From Rhodoferax sp. (GTDB lineage: Bacteria > Pseudomonadota > Gammaproteobacteria > Burkholderiales > Burkholderiaceae_C), in contig VMTC01000012.1 in assembly GCA_013791765.1 (NCBI GenBank), positions 45,106 to 109,105 on the forward strand: 64,000 nucleotides of DNA, written 5' to 3'. The notes beneath the pieces are model-generated. The model ran no database searches. It was not told the origin of the DNA and worked only from the letters and a program-made list of their open reading frames with translations. Both the position numbers and the translations under genes were made by a program. Below are positions 2 to 33,671 of this stretch, in pieces; position 1 is the stretch's first letter; the number at the start of each line of letters is the position of its first letter.

Positions 2-109
2 AAATCCACCATCTTCAAAGCCAGTCTGCAGATTGCCGACATCGACCACGCCTATTACGCGGATCATTTGCTCACGCTGGCGCGGCACCCTAGCGATTTT
101 CTCGACTGA
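2..109 (+). pseudogene. yaeQ: Host yaeQ, 5' part, cut by the island
   Basis: The frame from base 2 gives a typical YaeQ N-terminus (TIFKASLQIADIDHAYYADH, then LLTLARHPS) that matches the intact island copy at 20325. YaeQ is a small PD-(D/E)XK-fold protein first described as an RfaH-related suppressor; its biochemical role is unclear. The start codon lies just outside the window. After Arg-His-Pro-Ser (base 94) homology stops, and four foreign codons (Asp-Phe-Leu-Asp) lead to a TGA at 107-109. The missing remainder resumes at 33672 with Glu-Thr-Asp-Glu-Arg. The host gene is therefore split by a 33.6 kb insertion and the left piece can make only a truncated peptide. Confidence 0.93.
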
Positions 110-130
110 CGTTTTTGAATGTCAATTGAT
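94..130 (+). repeat. Left terminal inverted repeat of the island
   Basis: CGATTTTCTCGAC (94-106) is followed 12 bp later by ATGTCAATTGAT (119-130). The right end read inward on the minus strand gives CGATTTTTCTCGAC, a 9 bp spacer and ATGTCAAATGAT. The shared order and sequence of two boxes at both ends is what recombinase-binding terminal sites look like. Which protein binds is inference. Confidence 0.8.
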
Positions 131-464
131 CGCTTCACCCGGGGTGCGATTCAAACTAATGTGATGAATTTTCCAATTACACTGGATTCCAGTGTCGGGA
201 CGATTTTTTAGTTAATTTAAGCTGTCACCGTGTTTATGCCCAACTGAACAGCGTTGCCCCTGTTTTCTGTCTTGGAATTCGGTAGCTTGGAATTCAATTT
301 CAAATGGCTGTTTGGCAAGCGAAGCGCGTCAGGCCGAAGGCAAGGCCCTTGTGGATAAGTACGGGTGAGAGGTGTGGGGATGTGGGCAAGCCGGGCGTTT
401 TGCGGGCTTGTCCACATATCCTCACCGACCCCCTACTTATCCATCAAGTAGTGTGCTGTAGCCC
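110..464. other. Left-end noncoding region of the island
   Basis: I see no convincing gene between the truncated yaeQ and the 3' end of the helicase gene. The stretch holds the inner part of the left terminal repeat, a copy of GGGTGCGATTCAAA at 142-155, two copies of TTGGAATTC near 270-297, and the large imperfect inverted repeat at 352-443. Confidence 0.6.
352..443. repeat. Long imperfect inverted repeat with a DnaA-box-like motif
   Basis: The left arm (352-392) begins TGGATAAGTA and ends near GGGCAAGCC. The right arm (404-443), reverse-complemented, gives TGGATAAGTA at one end and GTGGACAAGCC at the other, with scattered mismatches between. TGTGGATAA at 350-358 matches the DnaA box consensus. 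It lies just past the stop of the helicase gene, so it may act as a transcription terminator for the defence operon, or as a structural element of the island end. The function is not shown. Confidence 0.6.
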
Positions 465-3260
465 TTACCACCCCTTCGAGAGCATCTCTCTCATGCTCAG
501 CCCATTCAGCACCGAAGCGCAGGTTTCCCAGTCCGCATCCTCCACCTTGCTGTATTTCGCATCAAACGGGTTGCGCGTCGCCGTGCTGCGGTCGATGAGT
601 TGATTGGCGGCGGCCTCGTCATTCAGCGCCACTTGCACCCACACATCCTCCAGCGTGTCGGGGATCTGTCCGAACAGGCCGTGAATCGCTTCCAGTCGGT
701 CGGCCAGCACTTGGTGAACTCGGTCCTCTACCGAATCGCGGTAGCGCAGGTTGGCAATCCAAATTTCATTGCGGGCTTGGCCAATGCGCTGGATACGTCC
801 CTTGCGTTGCTCCAGCCGGGTCGGGTTCCAAGGCAAGTCAATATTGATGAGTGTGCCCAAGCGTTGCAGGTTTAAGCCTTCCGATGCGGCATCTGTGCCC
901 AACATCAGCTTGAGGTCTCCCGCACGCACACGGCCTTTGAGCACATTGCGGTCGCAGCGCTGAAACCGGCCATCACGCCAAAAGCCTGAGCGGTTGCTGC
1001 CCGCGTAGAGTCCGATGTCCATGCCTGCAAACTCTGTGCGCTTGGCCATTTCGTCGCCAATCCAGCGCACCGTGTCGTAATACTGCGAGAACAGGATGCA
1101 GCCCCGTTCCAGCCAGCTCCCAGATACCCCTGGATGGGTTCCGCGCAAATAGCCAATCAGCGCCTCCAGCTTGGGGTCGTTGTTGCCACCTTGCTTGAGC
1201 AGGCTCAGGCATCGTCGTAACGAATCAATTTCCTTGTCCGTGAAGTTCTTGAAATCACTGGCCCCCTGCGGTGGCCGCCCCACCTGAATCGGCACCTCTT
1301 CTTCGACATCATCTTCGTCTTCATCGTCTGGGGCATCTGGCTCCTCGCCCAGAAGCTTGGCAACGGTGCGTCGCCCGGCTTCCATCGAGCTACCCATGCG
1401 CCGCAACAACAAAGTCTTGAAAAAACCAGCACCTTTAACCCGTTGCTGGAGCAACTGCGAAAACTCCTCTGCCTCCGCATAGGCATCACGCAGGTAACTA
1501 CCCAAAACCAGCGCGCCCTCGTTGTCTTCACCAAACAACTTCACTGTCACCTTGGGCAGAAAATAGCCGCCGGTAGCCGGGTTGATGGTCGCCTCCAAGT
1601 AGGCGCGGGTACGGCGCACGATGCAGCGCAGCAGCGGGTTGAAGTTGGCACCGTACTCGGGCAGCAGCCCGTTTTGCAGTTGCACACGCCGAATCGCCGG
1701 AGACAGTTGATCCAAACTCTCGGGGGTAAATTGCCAGCGCGTATCGCTGGCATCCAGGCTGCGGCGTATCCGGTCAAAAGCCGGGTTTTCAAATTTGGAT
1801 GGCAAGGGGTCGCGCACGTACTCCCAACCACTGCGCACATCCGCAGTCGGCACCTCAGCGTCGCCAGTCGCAATATCCAGGCAACGGCTGGCCTGAAACC
1901 ACTGGCTGGAATGCGTCCAACCACCCAGCACACCATCATTGCCCTGAGACAAGATGTGGAGTAGATCCCACGCCTCTACCGGGTGCAGTTGCACTGGGGT
2001 GGCGGTGGCCAGCAACATGCTTTTGGTCTTGGGACCGATCTCGCGCAAAAAGGCCATCAGCTTGTTGGGTTCGGCACGCTCGTTGACTTCATCAGCATCC
2101 GCATCCACCTTGGGCACCTTACGGCGGCGGGCGCGATGCGCTTCATCCACGATGACGCAGGTGTAGCGACGGCTCAGCAACTGGTTCACCGCCTCTGACA
2201 GACCGCGCACCACCAACCCCTGCGATACCAGTCCAATGCGGCGCGGGCACTTGCCCAGCGACTTGGCTCCATCGGACGGGTATTCCAAGTCGTTCTCGTC
2301 TACCCATGCTTTACCATTCCAGCGGGCAGAGGGCAACGACAGCAACTCCATCAACTCGTCTTGCCACTGTTGCAGCAGTGGCTTGGGTGCCAGCACCAAA
2401 ATCGGCCCGCCATCGGGGTCATCCAGCGCCATCAGCATGGCCGCCATCGCCAGTTGCACCGTCTTGCCCAAGCCAACTTGGTCGGCCAGAACCAGGCGCG
2501 CACCGCCCAGACGGTGACGCTCCAGCGCCAGCCTGGCAAAGTATTTTTGGTGCGGCCACAAGCCCTGATCACGCCGGTACACAGGTGTCTCGACCGCTGC
2601 CGCAGCCGCCACAAGGGTCGGGTCGGCAATCGTTGTCAATTCAGTTGGCTCAATGACAGTGCGGGAAAGAATGCGCTGCACGTCCTGCACAATGAAGGGA
2701 CAAACGCTTAAATCCACAGCACGCGGGTCGTTCCACAGTGCATCAAACTCCGCCTGCACCCAGGCTATGGTGTCGGGATCGTTGTCTTCCCACAGTAGCT
2801 CGTAGTTCAGCTTCCAGGCCGACAGGCTCTCATTCACACTGCCCATGAACGAGGTTGCAGTGCCGTCGGCATACCTCAGAACCCCCGCTTTGCCGTGGAT
2901 CAGGCCAAACGCCGAATCGGGCAGCACCCGCACCTCCAGCTTTTTGCTGGTCAGCGCCTCGTACAACTTCCGGTAGCGCGGCAGCGCGGCGGGTGGGGCG
3001 TCCTCCGGCTTGCCCGCGCACCAAGAGCGGCGCAGTGCGGCCTGCGCTGCCGCAGCAGTCACCAGGTCTTGCGGGTCCAGGTCTGAATTGCAGATGATGC
3101 GCACCGGCCCGGCCACGCCGGTAAGCGCCTCGCCCGCGACCTCAAACAGGCTGGACCGAAAGTACCCGGCAATGCGGTCATAGCTGACTGCACCGTTCAG
3201 GCGCTGGGTCAGCACCGACCGGTCAAGGCGATTGAGCCGACTGGAGTGGCGTTGGAGCAT
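465..3260 (-). CDS. Anti-phage phospholipase D / SNF2-type helicase fusion
   Basis: This 931 aa protein has two parts. Residues about 1-180 are a PLD-like nuclease module with His122-x-Lys124 and a GSxN motif (Gly140-Ser-Val-Asn143). From about 235 onward lies an SNF2/RapA-type helicase: Walker A DQVGLGKT (260-267), DEAH (372-375), a TATP motif III, and C-terminal motifs around TDAASEGLNLQ and GRIQRIGQ. Only one PLD half-site is visible, so activity may need a dimer. It is the last gene of the minus-strand operon, 12 bp after the DUF1156 methyltransferase. A PLD plus SNF2-like protein beside a methylase suggests the restricting or translocating arm of a modification-dependent defence system. 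PLD and helicase functions also occur in DISARM, but there as separate genes. Confidence 0.88.
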   Translation of the reverse strand: MLQRHSSRLNRLDRSVLTQRLNGAVSYDRIAGYFRSSLFEVAGEALTGVAGPVRIICNSDLDPQDLVTAAAAQAALRRSWCAGKPEDAPPAALPRYRKLYEALTSKKLEVRVLPDSAFGLIHGKAGVLRYADGTATSFMGSVNESLSAWKLNYELLWEDNDPDTIAWVQAEFDALWNDPRAVDLSVCPFIVQDVQRILSRTVIEPTELTTIADPTLVAAAAAVETPVYRRDQGLWPHQKYFARLALERHRLGGARLVLADQVGLGKTVQLAMAAMLMALDDPDGGPILVLAPKPLLQQWQDELMELLSLPSARWNGKAWVDENDLEYPSDGAKSLGKCPRRIGLVSQGLVVRGLSEAVNQLLSRRYTCVIVDEAHRARRRKVPKVDADADEVNERAEPNKLMAFLREIGPKTKSMLLATATPVQLHPVEAWDLLHILSQGNDGVLGGWTHSSQWFQASRCLDIATGDAEVPTADVRSGWEYVRDPLPSKFENPAFDRIRRSLDASDTRWQFTPESLDQLSPAIRRVQLQNGLLPEYGANFNPLLRCIVRRTRAYLEATINPATGGYFLPKVTVKLFGEDNEGALVLGSYLRDAYAEAEEFSQLLQQRVKGAGFFKTLLLRRMGSSMEAGRRTVAKLLGEEPDAPDDEDEDDVEEEVPIQVGRPPQGASDFKNFTDKEIDSLRRCLSLLKQGGNNDPKLEALIGYLRGTHPGVSGSWLERGCILFSQYYDTVRWIGDEMAKRTEFAGMDIGLYAGSNRSGFWRDGRFQRCDRNVLKGRVRAGDLKLMLGTDAASEGLNLQRLGTLINIDLPWNPTRLEQRKGRIQRIGQARNEIWIANLRYRDSVEDRVHQVLADRLEAIHGLFGQIPDTLEDVWVQVALNDEAAANQLIDRSTATRNPFDAKYSKVEDADWETCASVLNGLSMREMLSKGW

Positions 3261-3272
3261 GTGGTGCTTGTA

Positions 3273-6158: not shown

Positions 6159-6165
6159 GGACGTT

Positions 6166-10168: not shown

Positions 10169-12151
10169 TCAGTAAATAGCATTGATGGCTGCAAAGAGCG
10201 CCTTGAATCGAGCTATGGTCGCTGCATCAAGTGACTTTGGTGGCGACGAAGCGAACCGCGTGGCGACTGCGTAATGGTTGAATCCGCCGGATGGACGAAG
10301 TGTCAGGCCGTTCTCCTTTATGAACTTTTCGAGCCGAACCACAATCCTGTCGCCAGGCGGAAGATCAGCTTCAGTAATAACTACTCCAGCGAGTTGAGTT
10401 TTGAAAGTTGAATTGAAGTAGCTGAGATACATTTCCACCGAAAACAGGTCTTCAATATCACTTGGTTTGCCGCTGCTCTGACTTGCATTCTCTGGATCGC
10501 GGAACTGAGACACGTTGAATAATGCCTTGGCTGAAAGCAATTTGTCTCGGACAAGTCCCGTCATCTTCTGCTCGGGAACGCCGCGATAGTCATGCAAAAC
10601 GCCAAGTTTGAGACCACTGGCTCCGAGTAACGAGACAAATGTCGCAAGGTTGTCCAAACCGCCCGTGGGAACGATAGTGACATCGTCACGCATACCACCG
10701 CTTCCTTCGGCGTCAATAAATCCTGAAGCAATCTGCAAGTAGATTAGTTCTGAGGGGCCTTCAACCAACAAATTGCGCTCAGAAATGAACAAGTTCTGCG
10801 CGATGTTCCATCCAAGCGCGGCTTGTAATGGAAAGATTGTCCGTGGATCTGAGCCCACCAAATTCTCAGATATGACTGTTCCAACCTTGATTTGGTCCTC
10901 AACCAGTCGCACTTGGTGTAATCGGTCCGAATGAACCATGAACGGTGAATGCGTGGTGTAGAGGACTTGATGGTCATTTGCCAAACGGTCGATATAGCGA
11001 AGGAAATCCGCTTGCGCCAAGGCGTGCAGGGCCAAGCCGGGCTCGTCTAATAAAAGTATTAGCTTCTTGCCAACATTTTTGCCCGACGGGTCGATCTGAT
11101 GCTGAACGCTGTCGAACCAAACAAGGAAGCTGAAAAACCAGATGAAGCCACGACTACGCTGATCGAAAGGGGTGCTAACGCCCCGGTGGCGCCGATTCTT
11201 GATTCGCAGATATAAGTTCGGACCATTATTGAAAGGCACCTCATCAGTTGTATCGCTTTTAATATCGACCTCGACCTCAAGGTCTTCGTTCTGTTTCCAA
11301 AACTCCATCACCTGATCGCTTAGGGTGATTGAAACCCCCTCTATTTTCGCTTTTAGTTCTTCGTATCCGCCGGGCGCGGCAAGATCAGCAAAAGTGACGT
11401 CGGCCATGCGAAGCAATGCCAAGACTGAGCGATGAATAGGTTTCAGTTGCCTCGAATCGGCCTTGGCCTGTTCAACCCGTGTCGCTAGGTCGGCAAGATT
11501 CATCTTGCCTGGCAACAGGTCGTAATCGCTGAAATACAAGAACTTTGGAACATCGGCCGCAATCAATGACCATGCCTCCCACTGGGAAACTTGGTTCCAT
11601 TTGCTCGCTGCGATGCGAACGTTTAGGTCTTGCAGAAATACTTGATCGGCATCAGTAAGGCTTGTGCCGGTCAGGAGGTCGGGGATTGACCGCAGCGATT
11701 TGCAATCCGTCAGGGTGGCGGCAGCGTCGGTGCTCAAGGTAGCAGCGAAAGCCTCAATGAGCGGCAACTCGTCAACTGTCAGGCCAATGATTTCTGTGTT
11801 GTCATACTTGTGGGATAGCACCAATTGATGGCCTGACTCCAGGCTGGTGCCAAGTTTTTCGTTGACTCTGCCTATCTCATCATCACTAAGCGCATAAGTG
11901 AGCGAAATTGCAACCTCAGCCTGCGTCTTATGGTTCTTAAGGTATGCAGACAAATCCTTTCGTGGGTAATCTTCAACCGGTCCGAAGGATTCTTCGCCCA
12001 ATGCGTCGGCGGACTTTTGAAGTGCCTTTAGCAAGACGGTCTTGCCTGCCTCATTCATGCCTACAAAAACGGTGACGGCACAATCTACCGCAACGGTCTG
12101 AACAGAATTTATTGACCGAAACGGTCCAACTTTTGCAGAAACAAGTATCAT
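10169..12151 (-). CDS. OLD-like AAA ATPase with TOPRIM nuclease domain
   Basis: This 660 aa protein has an N-terminal ABC/SMC-type ATPase, with Walker A GMNEAGKTVL (31-40) and a Walker B region LLLDEPGLALHA (approximately 360-375). Its C-terminal TOPRIM domain carries LLVEGPSE at about residue 465. This is the architecture of OLD-family nucleases. GajA of Gabija is related, but there is no UvrD-like GajB neighbour, so Gabija is unlikely. The gene lies upstream of and co-oriented with the methyltransferase operon, separated by 150 bp, so it could be a co-transcribed effector or an independent defence gene. Its lower GC compared with the operon hints at a separate origin. Confidence 0.85.
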   Translation of the reverse strand: MILVSAKVGPFRSINSVQTVAVDCAVTVFVGMNEAGKTVLLKALQKSADALGEESFGPVEDYPRKDLSAYLKNHKTQAEVAISLTYALSDDEIGRVNEKLGTSLESGHQLVLSHKYDNTEIIGLTVDELPLIEAFAATLSTDAAATLTDCKSLRSIPDLLTGTSLTDADQVFLQDLNVRIAASKWNQVSQWEAWSLIAADVPKFLYFSDYDLLPGKMNLADLATRVEQAKADSRQLKPIHRSVLALLRMADVTFADLAAPGGYEELKAKIEGVSITLSDQVMEFWKQNEDLEVEVDIKSDTTDEVPFNNGPNLYLRIKNRRHRGVSTPFDQRSRGFIWFFSFLVWFDSVQHQIDPSGKNVGKKLILLLDEPGLALHALAQADFLRYIDRLANDHQVLYTTHSPFMVHSDRLHQVRLVEDQIKVGTVISENLVGSDPRTIFPLQAALGWNIAQNLFISERNLLVEGPSELIYLQIASGFIDAEGSGGMRDDVTIVPTGGLDNLATFVSLLGASGLKLGVLHDYRGVPEQKMTGLVRDKLLSAKALFNVSQFRDPENASQSSGKPSDIEDLFSVEMYLSYFNSTFKTQLAGVVITEADLPPGDRIVVRLEKFIKENGLTLRPSGGFNHYAVATRFASSPPKSLDAATIARFKALFAAINAIY

Positions 12152-12841: not shown

Positions 12842-13138
12842 TCATGCCTGGTCAATATCTGACAAATCTTTCATTACGCGCTCCCACAGTGAGCTTGCCG
12901 AACAACCCTTTGATTTCTTCAGGTACGACAGTGTTAACAGTGCAAGCGGGTGAACACCCAAGACCTCTGCCAATTCGTCTACCTTGTTGAGTGTGGGGGA
13001 GTAAATGCCTCGCTCCAGTGAACTTACATAGGTTCGGCTGGAGGCAAGACTAAATTCCTCCTGGCTTAATTGTTTTGCCAGACGTAATTTCTTCAGGGCA
13101 TGGGCAAAGTCATTTGGATGAAAGTTTGGACGCGTCAT
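12842..13138 (-). CDS. XRE-family transcriptional regulator
   Basis: This 98 aa protein has a clear helix-turn-helix of the Cro/C1 type: LRLAKQLSQEEFSLASSRTY and then SSLERGIYSPTLNKVDELAEVLG, residues about 18-62. It is transcribed divergently from the unknown gene at 13203, with the TATACAG repeats between them. It probably represses its own promoter and perhaps that of the divergent gene. The small size and lack of a ligand domain fit an autoregulator in an island module. Confidence 0.85.
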   Translation of the reverse strand: MTRPNFHPNDFAHALKKLRLAKQLSQEEFSLASSRTYVSSLERGIYSPTLNKVDELAEVLGVHPLALLTLSYLKKSKGCSASSLWERVMKDLSDIDQA

Positions 13139-19788: not shown

Positions 19789-20324
19789 ACTTACTCTTGG
19801 GCGACAACTAGCTTGACATCCTCCGACACTGAATCACCGCTGACTGAAGAACTAAACGGGCCATAGGTGGAGCAGTTTGGGTGGCCATAAGTGGGGCAGT
19901 TAGGGGTGGCCATCGGGGTCTAACTGCTCAACGTGGATATCAATGCTCTGCATTGCTGCCCGTTAACTTAGGCGTTGAGCATCCGCTTTTTACTTTGACG
20001 TATGACCGCTTTAAGCACATAAGAACCAACGACGACGGACCGATTTGCGGCACCTGAAATCTTCGACTTGCCAAGTCCAGGCCCTACAAGCCTCAATCGT
20101 TGTGCTCAATGGTGTAAAGTTGTTTACGACTTCAAAGCGACATGTTGTCAATTCGCCACGCCGCCAACCCGCATGAATGTTAAGTGCCTGTTTACGACTT
20201 CATTTGCGCAGAAGAACCGTCAGTTTGTCCAGCAATCTGGCAAATACAATCACACGAAAGTCACTTGCGGTAGCAAAGGCAGACTGCCCGTCGCCATACG
20301 CACCTATGAGTTATAGGAAACACC
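19789..20324. other. Intergenic region between IS3 remnant and island yaeQ
   Basis: I see no convincing gene here. The left part holds three copies of GGCCAT with a 24-25 bp period (19858-19915), like the subterminal repeats of an IS21-type element. The remainder is AT-richer sequence that should contain the yaeQ promoter, with AGGAAA just before the ATG at 20325. Confidence 0.5.
19858..19915 (+). repeat. IS21-like subterminal repeats (remnant)
   Basis: Units GGCCATAGGTGGAGCAGTTT, GGCCATAAGTGGGGCAGTTA and a partial GGCCATCGGGG follow at a 24-25 bp spacing. Such repeats sit at IS21-family ends; no istA or istB is present. I infer a deletion scar. Confidence 0.45.
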
Positions 20325-21918: not shown

Positions 21919-22965
21919 ATGCTGATCAGGGAAGCAACTATCCACCAGTTGATCAAGACCACACAGACAAGCGGAGACGACAGCGTCGGGCAACACGTGC
22001 GACAGGAAGTTCTTCCTGTCGACGAAGTGTTGCGGAATTTATGTGTTGAGTTGCTTTCGCTCTACGCCACGTCGGTGAACAGCAACGGCACTCTGGGGCA
22101 AAATCCGGTGATCCACACTTTCCCCGTGGCGTTGGCCAACTACACGACTGGCCAGAACGTTTTCCAGGCATTCACGGTTGCGACCCTGAGCTTGATCAAG
22201 GAGGAAATGAAAGCGGCAATCTTCGCCAACGGTGGATATGCTCTGTTTCTGCGCTATGAGCACGACAACATCGACTTCCTGCTCATTGCCATGCTCAAAC
22301 TCAAGGCGGGCGCTGGTATTGACGAAGAGACATTGAGTCTGCAGCCGACGCTGAACATCGACTTGAAGCTGTTGCATGAAGCCGCACGGATCAACTTGAC
22401 CCGACTCGCGAACCAAGAACATCCCTATCTGACCTTCATCAAGGGCAAGGCAAAAAAGGGCGACATCACCGGTTACTTCCGCAAGGCTTTAGCTTGTGTC
22501 ACCTTCACCGATTCCAAACACCATACCGACCAGTTGATCAAGGCCGCCCAGGCCTTTGTCGAGGCACGCGAGGATTTAGTCACCCCTGAGCAGAAGCGCG
22601 AAGAGCGCTCGCTCATGCGCAAGCGCCTGGTGGAGTGCTTGGAAGCCAATCCGCTGCAGGTAGTGCTCGCTACGGCCGCGGCAGCCATCATGCCCAGCGC
22701 GCCAGATGATTTTCTTGAGTTCTTGCAAACTGGGTCCACTGCCGGCCAGTACCATATTGACGACTCCTTCCAACCACACAAGGCCACTTACCGGCCGTTG
22801 CGCCGGATCAGCGCGAAAATTGGGCACTCCATCTCCGTTGCTTTCGATGTCGAAGATGTTCTGGCTCATCGTGTGACTTATGACACTGAACGTGATGCCA
22901 TAATCTTGCAGAGTCCCCCTGACTCACTCAAGCAAGCCATCATCGAAAATGACATTGCAGATTGA
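21919..22965 (+). CDS. NdpA/YejK-like nucleoid-associated protein
   Basis: This 348 aa protein aligns by eye with the nucleoid-associated NdpA family: IHQLIKTTQTSGDDSV at the start, LPVDEVLRNLCVELLSLY, ANGGYALFLRYEHDN, LLIAMLKLKAGAGIDEETL, LHEAARINLTRLANQEHPYL, FIKGKAKKGDITGYFRKALA, and TYRPLRRISAKIG near the end. NdpA binds DNA or the nucleoid in E. coli; its role is poorly defined. AAGGACAACAA precedes the ATG. The 3' end overlaps the next gene by 17 bp, which indicates coupled expression. The pairing with a membrane protein inside a defence-rich island suggests a dedicated function rather than a housekeeping copy. Confidence 0.85.
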   Translation: MLIREATIHQLIKTTQTSGDDSVGQHVRQEVLPVDEVLRNLCVELLSLYATSVNSNGTLGQNPVIHTFPVALANYTTGQNVFQAFTVATLSLIKEEMKAAIFANGGYALFLRYEHDNIDFLLIAMLKLKAGAGIDEETLSLQPTLNIDLKLLHEAARINLTRLANQEHPYLTFIKGKAKKGDITGYFRKALACVTFTDSKHHTDQLIKAAQAFVEAREDLVTPEQKREERSLMRKRLVECLEANPLQVVLATAAAAIMPSAPDDFLEFLQTGSTAGQYHIDDSFQPHKATYRPLRRISAKIGHSISVAFDVEDVLAHRVTYDTERDAIILQSPPDSLKQAIIENDIAD

Positions 22966-24271
22966 CAATCAGCACGGCTGGGCTCTCTGGCTCCTAGACA
23001 ACCTGGAGGATCAGCGGTTGCTTGGTGCTGGACACTGGGAAGGTGTGTTACCGGCCGCAGTTGATTTTACGGAAGTCTTGATGGCGCTGAGCGCCTATCC
23101 TATATTGATTGGGATGTCGGATGGGACGAGCCGGACGCTGGAGTTCTATCCGGGCGCGGCCAAGGTGTACGACTCGATGCAGGAGATGTTCGCCCACCCG
23201 ACGAACTTGCGAGTGGTGCCCCCGCGCTTCACTTTACGGGATATCGGATACACACACAACTCGTTGGTCCAGGCATCGGGTGCGCAGGCGTCCGTCCCGC
23301 CGTCCGTAGCCAACTATTTTGCGGCTTCTCAGCTCTGCCATTTGCTTCCCTTGCTGGCCGACATGACGGCGAACAGCGGTCAATCACTGCACTTCATTAA
23401 AAGTCCAGAATCTCGGATTGAGATCAGGCTGGAGTACCAAGTCGGTGATTTGGTTCCGCTCGTGTCTCTGCCCTTGTTCGAGTCCGAATATGCGGCGACC
23501 ACCCACCACAAGGATCAGAAACGGAGCATCGTGCGAGCGGTGCTGCTCGATGCGTTCAAGGGCAAAAAGTCCATCACTATCGGCGATCTGCTTCCACGGT
23601 TCGAATCGATCATCGAGGACGTGCGGAGCAACTACGCCATGTATGCGGCGGAGTTCTCCTTCGAAAAGATAAAGGCCGAGGTTGAGAAAGACAATCTGGA
23701 CTCCACGTTGAAGCTCAACAAGACGCTATCTGAAATTCAGAACCAGTTGTTGGCCATGCCGGTTGCACTTGTGCTCGTTGGCGGACAAATGACTTCTGAC
23801 ACGGGCCTCAGCATTAAAAACTGCGTAATTTGGCTCGGCGCTTTTGTTTTTGGCATCCTCATGATGCTGCTTATTCGCAACCAATTGCATGCCATTGACG
23901 CAATCTCTGAGGAAGTGCGCCTGCGGAAAATCAAGGTCGACGCGCAGCCGGAGGGTATGGCTGGCAAATTCATATCTGGATTTAACGACCTGGAGAAACG
24001 CGCCAAAACCCAGACCGGGACGCTGCGAGGCCTTCGACTTGGTGTCGCCGTATCTGTAATTCTGGCAACAGGACTGCTGATCTGGTTCTCGGTTCCCGAG
24101 TGGCATAAGAGCCTCCCGCAGGCGACCACACAACAAGTTGCTATCAATCCGGCCGTCCAGGCAGCTGCGACGTCAGCAGTAGCTGCTGCTTCGGCAGCCG
24201 CGCCTTCCCCACTATCGGGAACTATTCGAGCCATGCATGCTAGTTCTGCACCTTCTGCCTCGGCGAAATAG
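22949..24271 (+). CDS. Two-helix membrane protein coupled to the NdpA-like gene
   Basis: This 440 aa protein has residues about 1-270 soluble with a helical, charged stretch (FSFEKIKAEVEKDNLDSTLK, then KTLSEIQNQLL) leading to a first membrane helix (WLGAFVFGILMMLLI, about 290-310). A charged linker and a second helix (VAVSVILATGLLIWFSV, about 370-390) follow. The tail is low-complexity Ala/Ser/Pro. I recognise no family for the N-terminal part. The gene starts 17 bp before the NdpA-like stop. A DNA-binding sensor with a membrane partner is a recurrent design in abortive-infection systems. That reading is inference. Confidence 0.7.
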   Translation: MTLQIDNQHGWALWLLDNLEDQRLLGAGHWEGVLPAAVDFTEVLMALSAYPILIGMSDGTSRTLEFYPGAAKVYDSMQEMFAHPTNLRVVPPRFTLRDIGYTHNSLVQASGAQASVPPSVANYFAASQLCHLLPLLADMTANSGQSLHFIKSPESRIEIRLEYQVGDLVPLVSLPLFESEYAATTHHKDQKRSIVRAVLLDAFKGKKSITIGDLLPRFESIIEDVRSNYAMYAAEFSFEKIKAEVEKDNLDSTLKLNKTLSEIQNQLLAMPVALVLVGGQMTSDTGLSIKNCVIWLGAFVFGILMMLLIRNQLHAIDAISEEVRLRKIKVDAQPEGMAGKFISGFNDLEKRAKTQTGTLRGLRLGVAVSVILATGLLIWFSVPEWHKSLPQATTQQVAINPAVQAAATSAVAAASAAAPSPLSGTIRAMHASSAPSASAK

Positions 24272-25519: not shown

Positions 25520-27007
25520 ATGATTTGTAATTTTGCGAAATATTCAGCGTTCATTGCCGCGTCGGCGATTCTTGTTGCCTGTGGCGGCGGCGGTGCAGAT
25601 GTGGGTGGCGGCGTCATTGGCAGTGGTGGTTCAACAGACATTCCAGTCATCGGTAGTGGTAATACACCAGACAATCTAGTTATCAGCGGAACAGCAGCGA
25701 CCGGCCTTGCTATTGCTGACGCCCCCATCTCAGCGAAATGTCAGACCGGTATTGGAACTGCGACCAGCAACTCAGAAGGTACGTACCAGCTCACCGTGCC
25801 GATTGGCAAATTGCCGTGCATCCTACAGGTGACAAATCCCGTTGACAGTGCCAAATATCACTCCTTGGCGACTGGCGTTGGAAGAACTTCACTGTCCAAC
25901 ATTACCCCACTCACCGAACTGGTCGCGGCGAGGCTACTGGGTAGCGACCCGAAAACTGTTTTTGCCAACTTTAACGGCAGTGCAGTCCATAGTTTGATCA
26001 CCGACCTGTCCTTGCAGAACGCCGTGGCTGATGTGCGCGTCGTGTTGGGGGGGATCGTCAATACCGGGGCGTTGGGAAATTTTGTCACAACACCACTGAA
26101 GGCCGCGACGGCAACCAATCCGAATGGGGGTGACGCGCAAGACAAGCTTTTGGATGGGATCAAACAAACAATTGGACGTGACAACCTGACTCGTTTGGTG
26201 ACGCAACTTGCCAGTAGTGCAAAAACGTCGGAAATTAAAGTGACTGTGGATGTGACTATTGAAACCGCGACTGGTCCGAAAACACTGAACGTTCCATTGT
26301 TACCTGCGAGTTCGATTATCAATGGATGGCCGGATACGTTACCCACGGCGATCCAGAATGACGGCGCACTATCGTTTTGGCCGATGGTGACCGATGCCAG
26401 TTCTTATTCTTACGGATGGGACCGTGTATACGCTCCCCTCAGAGCGGATTCATTCCCACCTGGTATTTGGCCGGTCCATTTTAAATATTCTCAATTGTCC
26501 AGGCTAGACCTCTATGGATTTCGCAGCAACGTCAATACATCATGGGGTTGTTCGCTGAATTTGGTTGGAAGTTCGCTTGTAGCAACCGTTGGTGGTCGAA
26601 CATTTACCATGCCTCTCGACGGTGTGCCAGAAGCACGCTTTGCGCCTGATGGTTCGCCGATTGCCGGAGATGTTTTTGCATCAGGTGCGTCACAGCGAAC
26701 CATCGGGGCAGTATCAACAGTTCGGTCCCTCGATGTTTACGCTGAAGCCGAGAATATTTTGATCCATCCGCAGTATGGGCCAGTAAACGGTGGACCCACG
26801 CTTCATTTCTGGGTGACTTATGACCCGAATGCTTTCTATGCGGCGATGTTCGAAACCGTGTTGCAGATTTCAATTCAGGAAATGAATACTGATCCGCTTA
26901 CCAAAATTGGGCTTCCAATTGTCAGTACCTCCTATCGGTGCACGGATACAAATTCCTTTCCAGCTCCAAACTCCGGTAATTTACCCGCAGACTCGGTCGA
27001 GTTCTGA
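25520..27007 (+). CDS. Putative outer-membrane lipoprotein
   Basis: This 495 aa protein has a lipoprotein signal (FIAASAILVAC, lipobox LVAC, Cys21), a Gly-rich linker (GGGGADVGGGVIGSGG), then a carboxypeptidase-regulatory-like beta domain (ISGTAATGLAIADAPISAKC, at about 55-75). The C-terminal half (WPMVTDASSYSYGWDRVYAP onward) is a beta-rich region of unknown fold. Similar lipoproteins are common in Comamonadaceae. It lies between the hairpin at 25330 and the recombinase operon, which converges on it. Function unknown. Confidence 0.7.
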   Translation: MICNFAKYSAFIAASAILVACGGGGADVGGGVIGSGGSTDIPVIGSGNTPDNLVISGTAATGLAIADAPISAKCQTGIGTATSNSEGTYQLTVPIGKLPCILQVTNPVDSAKYHSLATGVGRTSLSNITPLTELVAARLLGSDPKTVFANFNGSAVHSLITDLSLQNAVADVRVVLGGIVNTGALGNFVTTPLKAATATNPNGGDAQDKLLDGIKQTIGRDNLTRLVTQLASSAKTSEIKVTVDVTIETATGPKTLNVPLLPASSIINGWPDTLPTAIQNDGALSFWPMVTDASSYSYGWDRVYAPLRADSFPPGIWPVHFKYSQLSRLDLYGFRSNVNTSWGCSLNLVGSSLVATVGGRTFTMPLDGVPEARFAPDGSPIAGDVFASGASQRTIGAVSTVRSLDVYAEAENILIHPQYGPVNGGPTLHFWVTYDPNAFYAAMFETVLQISIQEMNTDPLTKIGLPIVSTSYRCTDTNSFPAPNSGNLPADSVEF

Positions 27008-27051: not shown

Positions 27052-28554
27052 TCAGAAGTGCCTTCCATGCAGTTCGTCAATCTCTATGTCCTGTTTGGCA
27101 ATCGCTATGATCTCCCCGAGTCGGTCAGTTATCTGTTTAAGATCGATCTTGCTGTTCCCTTGTCGGTTACCTAAAGCTTCTGTCTCGTGCTGGAGGGACA
27201 AGAGGTCAGCAAATAATTGGTCTGACGCATGTAGTCGCGCAATGGCCCTGTCAATAGATCCCCAGACGCCCAATTCTTCCCAAGCGAGGTCGATGTAGTA
27301 CCAAAGGCTTTGAACGGAGCCGTGACCTGTTTTTGTTGCTACCCGTTTGAGAATTGACTCGTAGTCTATGTCGGTCATAATCTGACGTGACTTTCCGGAT
27401 TTTTCGATAAATTCCTTTAGGTGTGCAGTCACCTCGTAGGTAATAAACCTGTGCCGGAACATGCTAAGACAGACTTGAACGTCTTTGTATCCCGCTTCTT
27501 CGGCAAGACGTTCAAAATCCTTCTCGAGAGATGACTTCTTGATCGATTTACCATTCATAGTGAGGAAGAAGGAATCTCCTGGGGTAGGCTCTAGGCCAGC
27601 ACCATGAAGAGTTTCGGAATATGCCGTTCTGGCGATCAGATAACGATGTACAACTGTAGCGGCATTAAGCAGGATCGGAAAACTGCGGATGGGCGCTTTG
27701 ATCTTCCTTCTTTTTTTTGTGGGAATCTTTAAGGTGCGTGTCGTGAGGATGTTGAAATGCTCTCTCACGTTCATTTCCACCAACTCGCTTGGCCGCAGTC
27801 CAGTATGCATCATCATCCAGACCATGAAAAGACGTCTGGCCCTCATGTATTCAAGCTGCGCCGCAAGCAAAGCGGGGCTGTTGCGGTATCTCTGAACGAA
27901 TTTCGCGCTACGTTCGCCCAACACGCTCTGTCGATAGATGACTCTCTGTATGTCCTCAATCACAGGAAGCGCGATCGGACGCTTTGGCTCCCGGCTTTCA
28001 GAGGTTGGCATTGCCGAGTGGGTGTAGTAATACTCTATCTGGCGGTTCCCAGTCTTTCTCTTATCGTTTTTTATTCGATTGATGGTTATTTGAGGTGACA
28101 CGCTCTGCTCGCCAATCAGCGGTGTGCGCAACATCAGCATGATGTCCTTCTGGTACCACAGAAGAAACCGGATCGCACGACTCAATATGGCGCGGACGGT
28201 GTTTTTGTTACGTGCGCGCTCAAGAGGATTTCGCCGTGATTTCTCATCTTGCAGCTGCTGTGATAATTCATGAATGTCAGCATTCGTCAGGCTCTCAATA
28301 CTGACGGACTTATTGCCGCAGTACCTGACCAGATGACTCAGTTCGGCGGCGTAAGACCTTAACGAATCACCTGTAACCTCGTGTGCAATTTCAAGCAAAT
28401 ACATGTTGACCGGCTCGCAGGGCTTGCCGCTCGTCCAGTACATGAACGGGAAAGCTGGGATGATCTGCGTGCTAACGTGAATGCCATCTTTATGCTTCAC
28501 TCCGCTATAAGGCAGAGACATTGCCGGCAGCACATGAAACAGCTGTGAACTCAT
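27052..28554 (-). CDS. Tyrosine recombinase (site-specific integrase)
   Basis: This 500 aa protein has the tyrosine-recombinase residues in order: Arg254 in TGLRPSELV, Arg367-His368 in MFRHRFIT, His411 in TGHGSV, and Tyr419/420. The N-terminal 150 residues look like a SAM-like core-binding domain (SLRSYAAELSHLVRYCG). The C-terminal 60 residues are an extra helical tail. It is the last gene of a four-gene operon, starting 4 bp inside the end of the 203 aa gene. Multi-recombinase operons occur in Tn554-type, RIT and gamma-mobile-trio elements; the identity with any of these is untested. Confidence 0.88.
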   Translation of the reverse strand: MSSQLFHVLPAMSLPYSGVKHKDGIHVSTQIIPAFPFMYWTSGKPCEPVNMYLLEIAHEVTGDSLRSYAAELSHLVRYCGNKSVSIESLTNADIHELSQQLQDEKSRRNPLERARNKNTVRAILSRAIRFLLWYQKDIMLMLRTPLIGEQSVSPQITINRIKNDKRKTGNRQIEYYYTHSAMPTSESREPKRPIALPVIEDIQRVIYRQSVLGERSAKFVQRYRNSPALLAAQLEYMRARRLFMVWMMMHTGLRPSELVEMNVREHFNILTTRTLKIPTKKRRKIKAPIRSFPILLNAATVVHRYLIARTAYSETLHGAGLEPTPGDSFFLTMNGKSIKKSSLEKDFERLAEEAGYKDVQVCLSMFRHRFITYEVTAHLKEFIEKSGKSRQIMTDIDYESILKRVATKTGHGSVQSLWYYIDLAWEELGVWGSIDRAIARLHASDQLFADLLSLQHETEALGNRQGNSKIDLKQITDRLGEIIAIAKQDIEIDELHGRHF

Positions 28555-29162
28555 TTCGGCTGTTTCTTTTCGGGCAACTTGGTTACTGCGCCCTCATTGG
28601 TGATGGCACTACCGATGTTAGGTTCAAACAGATTCTCGAATGCTGCCTGATGATTTTCAAGAACTCTATATAGCCTCTCCTGGGCTTCTGGCTGTAGACC
28701 ACCGTTCTTGATTAGTCCATTTACCGCAGAATAGAGACTCAGGTACGCTTTTTGTCGCTTGATGCTCTGCGCTTCGGTGGCAGTAAGCCGTTCCATCAAT
28801 ATGCAAGTCTTGTCCTCCACGCGCTCTGCTTTTGCTTCAACAGTGCGCTTAGCCGTCGACTTCGAAAGGGACAATCCCAACTTGACGCGAAGCGAATCAA
28901 AGTAGGCAAAGCCAGTTGCCCCGATTCCGTTCGGCTCGATAAAAATTTGGTTGGCCAAGCTCTTGAGGGTATTGAGGGCAATGGGCGTGATTTTGAGCTT
29001 GGGCAGGTCGAGTGCAGCAAAGGCACGCTGGCCTACAAGGCTTGCATGCACGGTCTTGTCGATGCTGGTAGGTGCCTTTATCCCCGCAATAAGGAGGTCA
29101 TGCCGAGCGCGAACATTCACGATATTCTGGGCTTTTCTCTGGTACGCACCTCGTCCGGCCAT
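28551..29162 (-). CDS. Small recombinase-operon partner protein
   Basis: This 203 aa, basic N-terminus and mostly helical protein has a coiled-coil-like middle (STAKRTVEAKAERVEDKTC, then ERLTATEAQSIKRQ). I recognise no domain. It overlaps its upstream neighbour by one base (TGATG) and its downstream neighbour by 4 bp (ATGA), so it must be made together with the recombinases. The position is like that of TnpC in Tn554 or the small member of other multi-recombinase modules: an accessory DNA-binding or orientation factor (inference). Confidence 0.7.
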   Translation of the reverse strand: MAGRGAYQRKAQNIVNVRARHDLLIAGIKAPTSIDKTVHASLVGQRAFAALDLPKLKITPIALNTLKSLANQIFIEPNGIGATGFAYFDSLRVKLGLSLSKSTAKRTVEAKAERVEDKTCILMERLTATEAQSIKRQKAYLSLYSAVNGLIKNGGLQPEAQERLYRVLENHQAAFENLFEPNIGSAITNEGAVTKLPEKKQPK

Positions 29163-31357
29163 CAGATCACCTGCCGCATAACAAAGGAGATGTTGATACC
29201 CACAACATTACGACCGTCTTCCCCAAAAATGGAATGCGGTTCCAGCCGAAACTTCTCGTCTTTTCGCAGCGACTGAACATAGCTGGTCCATTCTGGCTCG
29301 GGAACCATGGTCAGGGATTCCACGTTAAAGTGCCTTAGGACCGCCTCGTACAACTCATCAACGCCATCGTCGTTACCAGCATCACCCTTGGCACGCCTCC
29401 TTTCCTGATCACGCCGATACACTCGGTCAATAGAATATTCTGCTTCAATTTGTGGTAATTCCTCTCCTGGAAACTCTTTTTCGATATACGCGTAGATGTG
29501 CTTTGCATCGGTATGTCCAGCAATCCATCGCGCTGCGTCAAGAACATCGAACCGGCCTGACCAGAAGAGCAGAAGCAAAAACCACTTCCGCATTTCATGG
29601 ACACGGACGTACCAGCGCCGACCCTCCATGTCGGGTGGCAATCCGACAAAGTCGCAGAAAATGTCGAGGTGTTTGTTGAGAAGATCCGCATGAGCGATCA
29701 ACGCCTCCATCCCTACAACCCTGGGCAGGTAGAACAGGTTGTCGCTAATTTTTCGCTCATCCGCAAAAAGCGTTGAAAGACTGCTACCCAAAAGCTGAAG
29801 CAAATGGATAGCCTTGGCCGAAATAACCGGAATTGGCCGGTCCTCGTCCTGCCAAACTTCACCGGCATTGCTTTTACCTCGTTCATAATTGAACCAATAT
29901 CCGTCAGCATCTTCACGCATGCAGTTGCGCTTTAGATGAGTCAATTCTTCTTCCCGCGATGGCTTCAAGAGAGCCATGCAAACAATACAGGAACCGATGA
30001 GCACGCGTAGAGCCTGGTCGAGCGTCGGATTCGACCGCAAGCGATCAAAATTCGTTTTCGTGTCTTTGCGCCGGAACTCCGTGATGTTCAAAACGGCTGC
30101 TATAGGTTCACCAGACGCGATTCGCCAATCGTTCAAACGTCGGTTCAGCGACCTATTCGTGCTGGGATTTGGCGTCGTTGGATTAAAGTCCGCTATCACC
30201 GCAAGGTAGAAGCCGACGATTGCTTCGCCATATACGTGGACAAACCGCATAGCCGTATTGAGAAATGCGAGCCCCGTATTGATCGGTATGAACAAGGTGT
30301 GCGACGAGGTACTCGTGACACGTTTGGCAATATTAGTCGCACGGCGAAGTGAGATGTGAGCCGGCTCAGGTAGAAGATCTGGAACATGACGATGCGCATC
30401 CAGGACCGTTCCAATTGCCTTTTCCAGGGCAACAATCGCTTCTTCGCTGGCGCCACCATCACGTACATCTTGGATAGATATAACCTTTTGGGAGGGAAAC
30501 TCGGTGCCCTGTCTCAATTGAACGAGCAGCGATTCATTGCCGAAATCCGGCTCAAACTGGCGAAGAAAACCTGAAACGTTAGGTGTTGTGAAGGATGAAG
30601 GGCTTTCGCCGATCAGCCTGGCAATCGGATTCCGTTTGAGGTGTCGTTTGCCCATGTGTGCGCCATCTTTCGCGTGGCAGTAAAGTCCTTGACATTCCAT
30701 CCATTGAACTAATGGCTCGATTTCTTTGATTGGAATCGTGAAGGGACTATTGAGCAAGGATTGCGGACACGAGATGCCATGAGCTCCTTGATACAAGACG
30801 GCCAAAATCCGCTGGGGAATCTGAAGAGCATGAAACCAGCCGCCTTCGGCGACCAGGCAGAATAGCCACTCGAGTGAGGGCTGGTCAATCAATCGAAGGC
30901 CGTATAACTCGGGCATGAATTTTTCTTCATGTAGCACAGTCCATCGTATGAGAGCGATCAGCTTGCCCATGCCATTCCTCCATGCAGCCGGAGTGGAGTT
31001 GCCAGCCACCAGCCCACTTCGCATAAGAAAAGCAATCTTCTTTAGTAGCATCAAAAGATGCTCATAGCGCACATCCGTCAACAGAGCTCCATTGGAAAGC
31101 GGAACGCGCCAATCGAAACGAATGGTGTTCTGCCACTGGCCATCAACCATTTCCTCGCGACCACGGTTAGTCGTATCCCACACCTCGTCTGGAAAAGGGG
31201 AAAGCAGCCAAGGCGCTTCAAATTTTCCATCGTAGGGGGCAATCTGCTGCTTGGCCGATGCCAGTGCCAGCCGCACCATCCGCCGGTCCTGTTCGCTGAA
31301 ATCATCAGGAAACTGTGGAGGCGGCAGCAGATCAAGTCGGGCTGCAAGTCTCGTCAT
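29162..31357 (-). CDS. Large tyrosine-recombinase-like protein
   Basis: This 731 aa protein has a C-terminal catalytic-like core with Arg468 (PSREEELTHL), HEMRKW (His587, Arg590), GHTDAKHIYAYI (His615, Tyr622/624). It has a long N-terminal region of about 400 residues with no known motif. All classical residues appear present, so it may be active. It overlaps the 730 aa gene by 4 bp upstream and touches the 203 aa gene downstream. It resembles in size and order the large recombinases of multi-integrase islands (a comparison with GmtZ/VPA1269-type proteins would be informative). Confidence 0.82.
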   Translation of the reverse strand: MTRLAARLDLLPPPQFPDDFSEQDRRMVRLALASAKQQIAPYDGKFEAPWLLSPFPDEVWDTTNRGREEMVDGQWQNTIRFDWRVPLSNGALLTDVRYEHLLMLLKKIAFLMRSGLVAGNSTPAAWRNGMGKLIALIRWTVLHEEKFMPELYGLRLIDQPSLEWLFCLVAEGGWFHALQIPQRILAVLYQGAHGISCPQSLLNSPFTIPIKEIEPLVQWMECQGLYCHAKDGAHMGKRHLKRNPIARLIGESPSSFTTPNVSGFLRQFEPDFGNESLLVQLRQGTEFPSQKVISIQDVRDGGASEEAIVALEKAIGTVLDAHRHVPDLLPEPAHISLRRATNIAKRVTSTSSHTLFIPINTGLAFLNTAMRFVHVYGEAIVGFYLAVIADFNPTTPNPSTNRSLNRRLNDWRIASGEPIAAVLNITEFRRKDTKTNFDRLRSNPTLDQALRVLIGSCIVCMALLKPSREEELTHLKRNCMREDADGYWFNYERGKSNAGEVWQDEDRPIPVISAKAIHLLQLLGSSLSTLFADERKISDNLFYLPRVVGMEALIAHADLLNKHLDIFCDFVGLPPDMEGRRWYVRVHEMRKWFLLLLFWSGRFDVLDAARWIAGHTDAKHIYAYIEKEFPGEELPQIEAEYSIDRVYRRDQERRRAKGDAGNDDGVDELYEAVLRHFNVESLTMVPEPEWTSYVQSLRKDEKFRLEPHSIFGEDGRNVVGINISFVMRQVI

Positions 31358-33489
31358 AGATTTTCCGCCCAGTGGTGCTTGATCGCCAACCGCGAAAACT
31401 GCGCATCGAGGCCAGCTTGCATCGCCAGTGCCCCCCCGTGAACCTGTTTTAGGAGTGGAACGTCAAGCGACTCACTCAGCGATGCATGAATCTTGTTGCT
31501 TTCGGCTGCATGTTTTAGCAGAGTTGCCAAATCGATGAATTGCCGTGGTGCCAAGCCGCTGATAACGTCGATTTTGTCAATGTCGCTCTCTGTAAGCATC
31601 CTCTTCGAAAGGTCGCTGTAGGAGTATAGGAAGGCAAGACTTTTGGGCGATAGGCGAACATTGAGGAGGCCGGGAACCAATGCCGACGACCCTGCTTCAA
31701 GGTGCTGTGCGGTACCTATCCGTCTTTGAAGTTCTTCTGCAAGCGGGCTTGTCTTAGTGGGATAGTCAACGATGAGCTGGGCTATAAAGTGTTGAAGATC
31801 CGCCATGGTGGAGAAATCTGTTACTTCCAACAGGTACGGCTCGTCGTAAGCCGCTAGCACGATCAAGGTGTTCTGAAATCGGCGGATGATTCGGGTGTTC
31901 CAAGCGTGCAGCAATGCGGGCGGCAGGTAATGCTCAAGGGCCACCTTGCGGGTGTTGCCAAGTCGGCGGCTCATCTCCAAGATGGAGCCCGTTTCAAACC
32001 AGCGAATCACCCCCAGTGTATTTCGCAAGCGACGGTAGTCGAAGCTTCCTTTGTCTAGGCCGTTTCGTGACAACGCGGGGTGCAACGTTGCAAGTCCAAT
32101 TGTGTCCTGACCGCCGTGTAGATATATGGGTCTCCCCTCAATAACTCCAAGGGCTCCGTTTATTCCACCGCGTTGCTTTACCCCAAGAAACAAGTAGCGC
32201 CAAGTCTTGTCGCCTGCACGCCTCAAAACGTCCCGGACCGGCGCAGTCCATTGCAGGATGTCCTTAACCAACTGTTGAGAACGAGAGCTCAATACGACGG
32301 ATTTACGCTTGCCAGCACGCGGCTTATCGACGCTGAGAATTGAGTGATAGTGGCTGTCCGTAAGAAGCAAATATGGCTTGCCATGGACATTCAAAAGTTT
32401 AGCGTCTTGCAGGCTTTCCGACGTGAACTCGGGGTGCTCAATTGTCAACAAGCAACATGCTGCTGCGGCATCAATATTGGAAAGAAGTCCGGCGAACCGA
32501 TAGAACTGCGATGGAATCTGCACTGCTTGCCGTTGTTCCCGTGTCAATGCAGTTAAGTCGCTTAGGGCAGAAAATCGATCTATTTCATGACCGAAGACGT
32601 CATTTCTAAAAAATGGTGAAGCCCTGAGTGTTCGGATTGATACACAATCTATCTTTGATCCAGTTGCTATCTTGTGGCGAGTGACAGCGAGCGCCCAGTT
32701 GTGACCTTGCGGTTGGGCCGCACTGGCGAACAGGCACAGACGATGACTTTTTCCAGAGTAGGTGCCAAATCGTTTTGCCGCCGTCTCCTCTTCAATTTTC
32801 GCATCCGTCACAATTTCGGCCAGCGTTCGTCCGGTTGCACCGTCTTTCATCAGTCCTTCCCAGTGCTCCTGACAAGTGTCCCTGATGACGTCAATCAAGT
32901 GCCTACATTTTTTTTCCACCGCATTGAGATAATTCGCATCGGTCATTCCAACGCTGATGTCAACAAGCAATTTCTTGGGTTGTGTCGTTAAATCGACGAG
33001 CTTCTTTCGAGGTTGACCAAGAAGAGGCTGATCTTTGGCAATACTCTTGATTCTTTTCTGATCAATTTTTGGGATCACGATATCATGTGGAATGACTTCT
33101 TCCTCTTTGAGGAACTCCAGCAGGCCACCGAACCTTGTCTGCCATTCCCGCATCCGAAAAGCTGTTAGAGCTTGGCTCCAATTTGAGTTGGTCAAAAAGA
33201 ACTGGAAAAAACTATATATCGTGATTTGCCAGTCGGAGGAAGTCGTCGGCCACGAAATTTTATTCGCTTTAAAGTAGGCGAACAAGGGACGTAAAAAATG
33301 GGTAGTGGCATTTTGCTGAGTACCCAGTGTCGCTCCACGAAATTTCTTCACCAAGCAGTCCGCGAGAACGACGACCTGTTTCTCAGTTAAGCCAGTCCCA
33401 GCAAAGGATTGGTTTGCAGTCGTGTCTTCCGTGCGCTTGGGATTGTCCAGATAGAACGTCACTACCTCGTTTTCTATTTTGTAACGCAT
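31354..33489 (-). CDS. Large tyrosine-recombinase-like protein, first gene of the operon
   Basis: I choose the ATG at 33489 (711 aa), which has GAGGG 10-14 bp upstream, over a GTG at 33546. In the longer numbering, the C-terminal core shows YRRLRNTLG (Arg506/508), LGNTRKVALEHYLPP (Asn531 where His is usual, Tyr540). The His-to-Asn change and weak first Arg box suggest a divergent or partner role. The start lies about 180 bp inside the right end of the island, so the operon promoter and the right terminal site are close together and may cross-regulate. Confidence 0.78.
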   Translation of the reverse strand: MRYKIENEVVTFYLDNPKRTEDTTANQSFAGTGLTEKQVVVLADCLVKKFRGATLGTQQNATTHFLRPLFAYFKANKISWPTTSSDWQITIYSFFQFFLTNSNWSQALTAFRMREWQTRFGGLLEFLKEEEVIPHDIVIPKIDQKRIKSIAKDQPLLGQPRKKLVDLTTQPKKLLVDISVGMTDANYLNAVEKKCRHLIDVIRDTCQEHWEGLMKDGATGRTLAEIVTDAKIEEETAAKRFGTYSGKSHRLCLFASAAQPQGHNWALAVTRHKIATGSKIDCVSIRTLRASPFFRNDVFGHEIDRFSALSDLTALTREQRQAVQIPSQFYRFAGLLSNIDAAAACCLLTIEHPEFTSESLQDAKLLNVHGKPYLLLTDSHYHSILSVDKPRAGKRKSVVLSSRSQQLVKDILQWTAPVRDVLRRAGDKTWRYLFLGVKQRGGINGALGVIEGRPIYLHGGQDTIGLATLHPALSRNGLDKGSFDYRRLRNTLGVIRWFETGSILEMSRRLGNTRKVALEHYLPPALLHAWNTRIIRRFQNTLIVLAAYDEPYLLEVTDFSTMADLQHFIAQLIVDYPTKTSPLAEELQRRIGTAQHLEAGSSALVPGLLNVRLSPKSLAFLYSYSDLSKRMLTESDIDKIDVISGLAPRQFIDLATLLKHAAESNKIHASLSESLDVPLLKQVHGGALAMQAGLDAQFSRLAIKHHWAENL

Positions 33490-33636
33490 GTGGTTATTGC
33501 CCTCACGACATTTGAATAGTGCTTCTTGCTGAAACAACAAACTCACTGTAAATGATCAGATGAAGAGTGTCAACTGAAGCAGTTCAGTGAAGCAAAAAAT
33601 CAACATATTTAGTTGCAGACTCAAGGTTTTTTTGGA

Positions 33637-33671
33637 ATCATTTGACATTGTTATCATGTCGAGAAAAATCG
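33637..33671 (-). repeat. Right terminal inverted repeat of the island
   Basis: Read inward from 33671 on the minus strand it gives CGATTTTTCTCGAC, a 9 bp spacer and ATGTCAAATGAT. This mirrors the left end (94-130), with one extra T in the first box and a shorter spacer. Host yaeQ resumes at 33672. Confidence 0.8.

Follow-up and report, generated by a model that had tools for sequence, protein, structure and literature searches.

How can a mobile element come to lie in the middle of a conserved protein-coding gene without killing its host? This question is raised by a 64,000-nucleotide stretch of a Rhodoferax sp. contig (VMTC01000012.1; G000:C101:45106-109105), hereafter the window, in which an island of 33.6 kb cuts the gene yaeQ at the Pro-Ser|Glu codon boundary and carries a second, complete yaeQ. 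The island is a tyrosine-recombinase element, and we propose, with a probability of about 0.8, that it belongs to a family of elements that insert into a conserved gene and supply a substitute copy of it. The target gene, the element ends and the substitute are laid out as follows (window positions).

1-90, + strand: 5' half of the host yaeQ; its ATG (G000:C101:45098) lies 8 bases upstream of window position 1, and LARHPS is in frame at 90-96
91-96, + strand: cassette-distal 6-bp core TAGCGA, read Pro-Ser(AGC)-Glu, host-like
97-130, no strand: left end of the element, TTTTCTCGAC...TGTCAATTGAT, an imperfect inverted repeat; the same end occurs in G059 and L065
20325-20873, + strand: complete diverged yaeQ, the putative substitute gene (182 aa; Pfam YaeQ, 6.4e-75)
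33637-33667, no strand: right element end, in inverted repeat to the left one, TTTTTCTCGAC...TGTCAAATGAT read inward
33668-33673, + strand: cassette-end 6-bp core ATCGGA, read Pro-Ser(TCG)-Glu, unlike the genus
33674-34130, + strand: 3' half of the host yaeQ; reading resumes at 33668-33674 as SETDERMMVRL and the gene ends at 34130

The bounds of the element proper, 97-33667, come from ends aligned by eye and lie within a few bases of the 94-33671 given in an earlier note on this DNA, whose description of a split yaeQ, element ends and a second yaeQ copy is confirmed throughout. The terminal inverted repeats, likewise aligned by eye, are imperfect, and both read inward. The assembly contains three yaeQ matches, namely the two halves and the inner gene, and the inner one alone is full-length. 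GC content is 54% in the island, 59-62% in the flanks and 47% in the inner yaeQ.

The uninterrupted site was examined in 17 loci from relatives, 15 of them from the same genus; 35 same-genus genomes have a single full-length yaeQ in 31 cases and no match in four, and the 15 loci come from those 31. All 15 matched the right flank and 14 the left. In the 11 loci where the left match reaches the last base, the flanks are contiguous, with zero base pairs gained or lost when the core is counted once. The earlier note had the two halves joining without loss at Pro-Ser|Glu-Thr and had expected contiguous flanks at an empty site; both points hold, the junction reading LARHPS followed by ETDER. The serine codon before Glu is AGC or AGT (AGY) in all 15 loci. 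The core at the cassette end has TCG, which still encodes Pro-Ser-Glu (probability for a random hexamer, 0.006); because this codon departs from the AGY of the genus yet keeps the Pro-Ser-Glu reading, the right core probably came with the element from a yaeQ in which it had been inserted before.

A second island at the same codon, of the kind the earlier note had suggested looking for, is present in G059, a genome from another family of the same order. Its yaeQ is split after LARHPS, and the end sequence that comes next, GATTTTCTCGACAGAC...GTCAATTGAT, is the same as in the window; a complete yaeQ of its own starts ~105 bp inside the end, and JAB and ThiF-like genes come next. Among 399 genomes of the order, the junction pattern was matched three times, without mismatch in the window and G059 and with two mismatches in G198, a chance-like site that we rejected. 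In a phylogenetic tree, the inner YaeQs of the window and G059 pair up (98% support in the Shimodaira-Hasegawa-like approximate likelihood ratio test, SH-aLRT), apart from the YaeQ of the window's host; the row L007_host there is a second reading of the inner gene of G059. The ratio of nonsynonymous to synonymous substitution rates (dN/dS) between the two inner genes is 0.065, with dS near saturation. Since an independent genome repeats the split, the end sequence and the element's own yaeQ, the pairing of split and copy in the window is not a chance event.

Other irregular yaeQ sequences turned up in a search of the class and were set aside: partial genes in G660, G591 and G661 are contig ends, and that in G486 is a pseudogene, while low-scoring partial matches beyond these four were not read. 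Extra yaeQ pieces in G058 are a separate phenomenon: two more copies of the 3' end follow yaeQ there (L035 9907-12586), each preceded by a pair of small toxin-antitoxin-like genes. The pattern looks like insertion of such pairs at the gene's end. In the window, a tandem repeat of 2.2 copies of 24-25 bp (19859-19913) lies between an insertion sequence (IS) gene and the inner yaeQ, upstream of the latter.

The likely agent of insertion is a cassette of four genes that runs inward from the right end of the island, encoding proteins of 730, 731, 203 and 500 aa.

31354-33546, - strand: 730-aa protein, first cassette gene; weak tyrosine-recombinase-like fold match, first catalytic Arg apparently missing
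29162-31357, - strand: 731-aa large tyrosine recombinase-like protein; R468, K495, H587, R590, H615 and Y624 invariant in 5/5 aligned sequences
28551-29162, - strand: 203-aa small cassette protein, without a family match
27052-28554, - strand: 500-aa XerC/D-like tyrosine recombinase, last cassette gene; Phage_integrase and XerC/D matches

Searched against Pfam and NCBIfam, the cassette proteins gave no family beyond "integrase", and the 500-aa protein was the sole one matched. In the 730-aa protein, K, R and Y are invariant in 15/15 sequences, and the position of the first catalytic Arg, as judged by eye, appears to be an invariant Thr (T375); its predicted model (mean predicted local distance difference test score, pLDDT, 69.8) has tyrosine recombinases for all 11 top PDB matches, all of them weak (best E 0.0098). 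A profile of the 731-aa protein identified 51 loci in a collection of 84,980 genomes. The three large cassette genes are present in the same order in 45 of these loci, one being missing in the other six (L079, L090, L097, L109, L111 and L114); the small gene was compared in nine loci. On the plasmid records examined, the cassette relatives are annotated solely as hypothetical protein, integrase or recombinase. On a Providencia plasmid (L152 4825-15751), the four-gene cassette stands directly before umuD and near umuC, with a class A beta-lactamase gene also present, and the umuD region is possibly another target gene. NCBIfam includes gamma-mobile-trio models; none was among the matches of the scanned cassette proteins, and an assignment to gamma-mobile-trio islands was dropped.

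We compared the 2 kb outside the cassette end with all fetched sequence beyond the cassette, taking the 3-5 kb outside as the control. Matches were obtained in 18 of the 37 loci with enough sequence, or 17/36 after removal of L081, where two ends of one contig match each other and the match is an artefact; the control flank gave 0/32 (Fisher p 2e-6). The loci are not independent, hrpB in Pseudomonas and Stutzerimonas making up 10 of the 17 positives. Targets checked with Pfam and accompanied by a copy comprise HrpB, topoisomerase, PhoH/PIN, thymidylate synthase, pirin and aminotransferase genes; a comM-type Mg-chelatase and a RadC-like N-terminus were checked in the same way and have no copy.

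The full tripartite arrangement of host half, complete inner copy and other half is found, besides the yaeQ of the window, for an aminotransferase (L064), pirin (L067, L068), topB (L104) and hrpB in eight loci (L073, L074, L080, L084, L085, L087, L094 and L098), so that all eight two-half hrpB insertions hold a complete inner hrpB. One host half plus a copy is seen for hrpB (L096, L102), PhoH (L110, L113) and thyA (L095). The tripartite count is biased, in that the full-gene queries were built from the copies, comM excepted. A fairer contrast is offered by hrpB itself: a host half lies beside the cassette in 12 testable loci, 10 of which have a copy while the contig ends early in the remaining two (L083, L088). 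In addition, L089 has an inner hrpB and no host half on its contig, and L090 and L097 have hrpB halves with part of the cassette missing. Both halves of comM are present in L071, L072, L075, L076 and L078, and a copy in 0/5 of them by either test; comM is dispensable outside natural transformation.

Individual loci add detail. The aminotransferase insertion has 6-bp cores (L064 7593-7610 and 61294, in extended sequence) that are reverse complements of each other, TCCGTG and CACGGA, which could reflect an earlier insertion in the other orientation. In L095 (6460-6807 and 13189-14049), the thymidylate synthase gene is cut, a complete 35%-identical copy lies right behind the cassette, and the contig ends before the other half. 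At L100 (6978-7247), a cassette relative adjoins the N-terminal part of a RadC-like gene; a radC-type gene is the target gene of Tn554. The distal half was not located for L100, for L082 (HATPase), for L108 (ABC) or for the remaining copyless loci without a recognised target gene.

With the inner YaeQ as query, no match was found in any of the 51 loci related to the cassette, flanking sequence of up to 10 kb included. The earlier note had called yaeQ a true integration site whose insertion comes with a substitute, and had regarded a lack of preference for yaeQ among related elements as fatal to the idea. The first part is strongly supported by the repeat in G059 and the same pattern at other targets. 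The family as a whole shows no preference for yaeQ, its sub-lineages occupying hrpB, pirin, topB, comM, an aminotransferase gene and others, and this breadth does not refute the mechanism. As to its further suggestion that yaeQ matters to the host, the presence of a substitute is by itself no proof of essentiality.

The inner copies are open reading frames, and those that were compared are under purifying selection. Their dN/dS is 0.146 for pirin and 0.062 for one hrpB pair; dS is saturated in another three pairs of hrpB and in one of PhoH (pN/pS, the corresponding ratio of uncorrected proportions, 0.14-0.24), and the L096/L089 hrpB pair is near-identical, which makes the selection test uninformative. 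Protein identity between copy and host is about 35-50% for yaeQ, aminotransferase, PhoH and thyA and 64-88% for topB, hrpB and pirin.

The N halves of host hrpB end at DEFH followed by GTTTTG in 8/8 cases, and the insertion-point residues are RSLDAD in 12/12 host C halves and H-[L/I/S]-R-[N/T]-L in 11/11 inner copies, which amount to 10 distinct copies (L089 resembling L096) and have no internal stops. Eight of the 10 form one group in the HrpB tree (98%), apart from the hosts. Because the other two fall separately, outside this main group, the tree suggests that the same site residues changed more than once. As a general rule, a change of the inner copy at the site was rejected; it is clear in HrpB alone. 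Beside the complete inner hrpB of L096 lie broken older hrpB fragments (14308-14989), suggestive of one earlier replacement of the substitute.

We propose that the four-protein tyrosine-recombinase machine would move the island by recognising the coding DNA of a conserved protein motif (LARHPS|ETDER in the case of yaeQ), and that recombination across the 6-bp core would split the target gene. The complete diverged copy would then take over from the split gene, and would be carried by the element because the split would otherwise cost the host. Such a scheme presumes expression of the copy and, through it, a return of the lost function, and the copy may also evade the element's own recombinase. 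More tentatively, at a little under even odds, these elements may constitute a natural insert-and-rescue family in which the break falls at the DNA of a motif that is catalytic or conserved for other reasons, an altered copy stays uncut by the element's own recombinase and the dependence of the host punishes loss.

Several observations weigh against a family that supplies substitutes. No copy was found in 19/36 loci (L065, L069, L070, L071, L072, L075, L076, L077, L078, L082, L083, L088, L089, L100, L105, L106, L107, L108 and L112), six of which are comM insertions (L071, L072, L075-L078) and several contigs that end early; L069 has a pirin half on a short contig, and the cassette reading frames of L070, beside a phospholipase-like gene, are broken. 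L065, the relative whose recombinase is most similar (76% in the 731-aa protein) and whose end sequence is that of the window, lies in a DUF7673 gene, with no copy within the locus and the other half not found. In the window, the inner yaeQ adjoins an IS and is 20 kb from the end, and not next to it as in G059. The G059 contig stops 2 kb inside the element, and a search there with the 730-aa protein, the one cassette protein used as query, found no relative. In yaeQ, pirin and the aminotransferase, the protein is more conserved at the site than elsewhere, and rescue by the copy is something we infer from sequence.

The inner gene could alternatively be ordinary cargo, acquired from an earlier host beside the insertion site and kept by chance rather than for rescue. 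An element that sits within its target gene might plausibly capture a neighbouring copy, and the decayed hrpB fragments beside a whole copy in L096 show that copies come and go. The control flanks, with a cargo homologue in 0/32, speak against chance capture, as do the open frames and purifying selection of the inner copies and the lack of copies in comM elements of the same family; the supported group of eight inner HrpBs lies apart from the hosts, and the copies therefore travel with the element. We regard chance cargo as unlikely. Less probable again is a mainly recombinational role, in which the copy would act as a decoy or as a homology tract for integration or island exchange. The authors of the Tn552-II study propose a joint part for the target gene and its homologue tgl in transposition, in the portion of that paper available (PMC12486829); the inner HrpBs, however, are changed at precisely the attachment residues, the opposite of a decoy, and the lower of the copy-host identities given above also argue against this role, though the higher ones (topB, hrpB, pirin) do so less. 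The position of the window copy near an IS, far from the end, would suit a history in which yaeQ was split long ago by a copyless island and the second yaeQ arrived later by an unrelated insertion, their pairing being coincidental. The same pairing in G059, with the copy just inside the same end and the two inner YaeQs grouped together, and its recurrence with pirin, hrpB, topB and the aminotransferase make this the least credible of the three. A family that inserts into a conserved gene and supplies its substitute thus remains our preferred reading.

The left third of the island contains a four-gene anti-phage set (465-10018) and an OLD-like ATPase; other genes of the island are listed after them.

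465-3260, - strand: PLD/SNF2 helicase, anti-phage set
3273-6158, - strand: DUF1156 methyltransferase, anti-phage set
6228-6866, - strand: DUF3780 protein, anti-phage set
6869-10018, - strand: DUF499 ATPase, anti-phage set (score below the NCBIfam cut-off)
10169-12151, - strand: OLD/Gabija-like AAA ATPase with TOPRIM, putative defence cargo
12842-13138, - strand: helix-turn-helix (HTH) regulator
19048-19788, + strand: IS transposase (rve integrase core), a secondary insertion within the island
21919-22965, + strand: NA37 nucleoid-associated protein
22949-24271, + strand: 440-aa protein with weak DS1_2 anti-phage similarity, below the cut-off
25520-27007: 495-aa island protein, without a Pfam, NCBIfam or PADLOC match

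Insertion with a substitute would explain how highly conserved coding DNA, and thus a site available in many hosts, can serve as a target without host death. It predicts that dependence on an island can arise through an ordinary housekeeping gene rather than a toxin, and it offers a route to finding islands, by a split conserved gene with a second, diverged copy. The question can already be put to the test on hrpB, whose 10 distinct inner copies are altered at the attachment residues.

Among known systems, compared here through the available portions of the papers, strand-biased circularizing integrative elements (SEs) likewise have several tyrosine-recombinase-type proteins, one of them without the full catalytic motif, and a small protein, together with imperfect terminal inverted repeats, a 6-bp core or spacer and few target sites (PMC10214605). 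The SE operon runs intA-tfp-intB-srap, which differs from the order here (Arg-less large, catalytic large, small, ordinary); SEs were found by their authors solely in Gammaproteobacteria in the NCBI sense, whereas many of the relatives here are Betaproteobacteria by record title; and a copy of the target gene is not described for SEs in the portion available (PMC10214605). The carried core of SEs is placed at the end away from intA (PMC10214605), whereas the foreign-looking core of the window is at the cassette end; core polarity may differ from that of SEs, or our core assignment may be wrong.

GInts also have a cassette of four genes, of which three encode recombinase-like proteins and one a small protein (a likeness that includes the weak fold match of our 730-aa protein), are site-specific, count Beta- and Gammaproteobacteria among their hosts, carry cargo of 2.5-70 kb and are proposed to use 6-nt staggered cuts (PMC5385486). 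Their order is ginA-ginB-ginC-ginD with the Arg-less GinC third, whereas here the Arg-less protein comes first and the small one third; GInt insertion leaves the target product little altered (PMC5385486), whereas here the break falls within conserved motifs, in the coding region of yaeQ, hrpB, pirin, topB and comM. SEs and GInts are the nearest known machines, and the cassette is set apart from both by gene order and, in the case of GInts, by the damage done to the target.

Tn552-II, of the Tn554 family, likewise splits its target gene and takes the donor core with it; it carries a homologue of the target (tgl), and its authors suggest that tgl may rescue the split gene (PMC12486829). The Tn554/Tn552-II type has three genes, tnpA-tnpB-tnpC, and is described from Staphylococcus in one case (PMC12486829); here there are four genes including an extra Arg-less protein, in Proteobacteria, with five target genes in tripartite form and HrpB copies changed at the site. 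hrpB has been named as an island site in P. aeruginosa (PMC8373256, available portion). Our literature search returned no paper linking yaeQ, "integration site" and "genomic island" (subscription papers and outside preprints were not covered), nothing relevant on target-copy rescue beyond the Tn552-II paper and nothing on a comM/radC hotspot. Carriage of a target-like gene with a suggested rescue is thus known from Tn552-II, and the family-wide pattern and the HrpB site changes, as read from sequence, appear to be new, neither being found in the literature searched.

Cleave-and-rescue gene drives are synthetic designs for eukaryotes, in which a nuclease disrupts a gene of the host and the drive supplies a recoded version. 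The elements described here likewise disrupt a gene and carry its copy, by way of a natural bacterial recombinase island. If the insert-and-rescue reading is true, such an island would do no harm when it enters and would not easily be lost; it would be the counterpart in bacteria of these drives, bearing in this case an anti-phage cargo.

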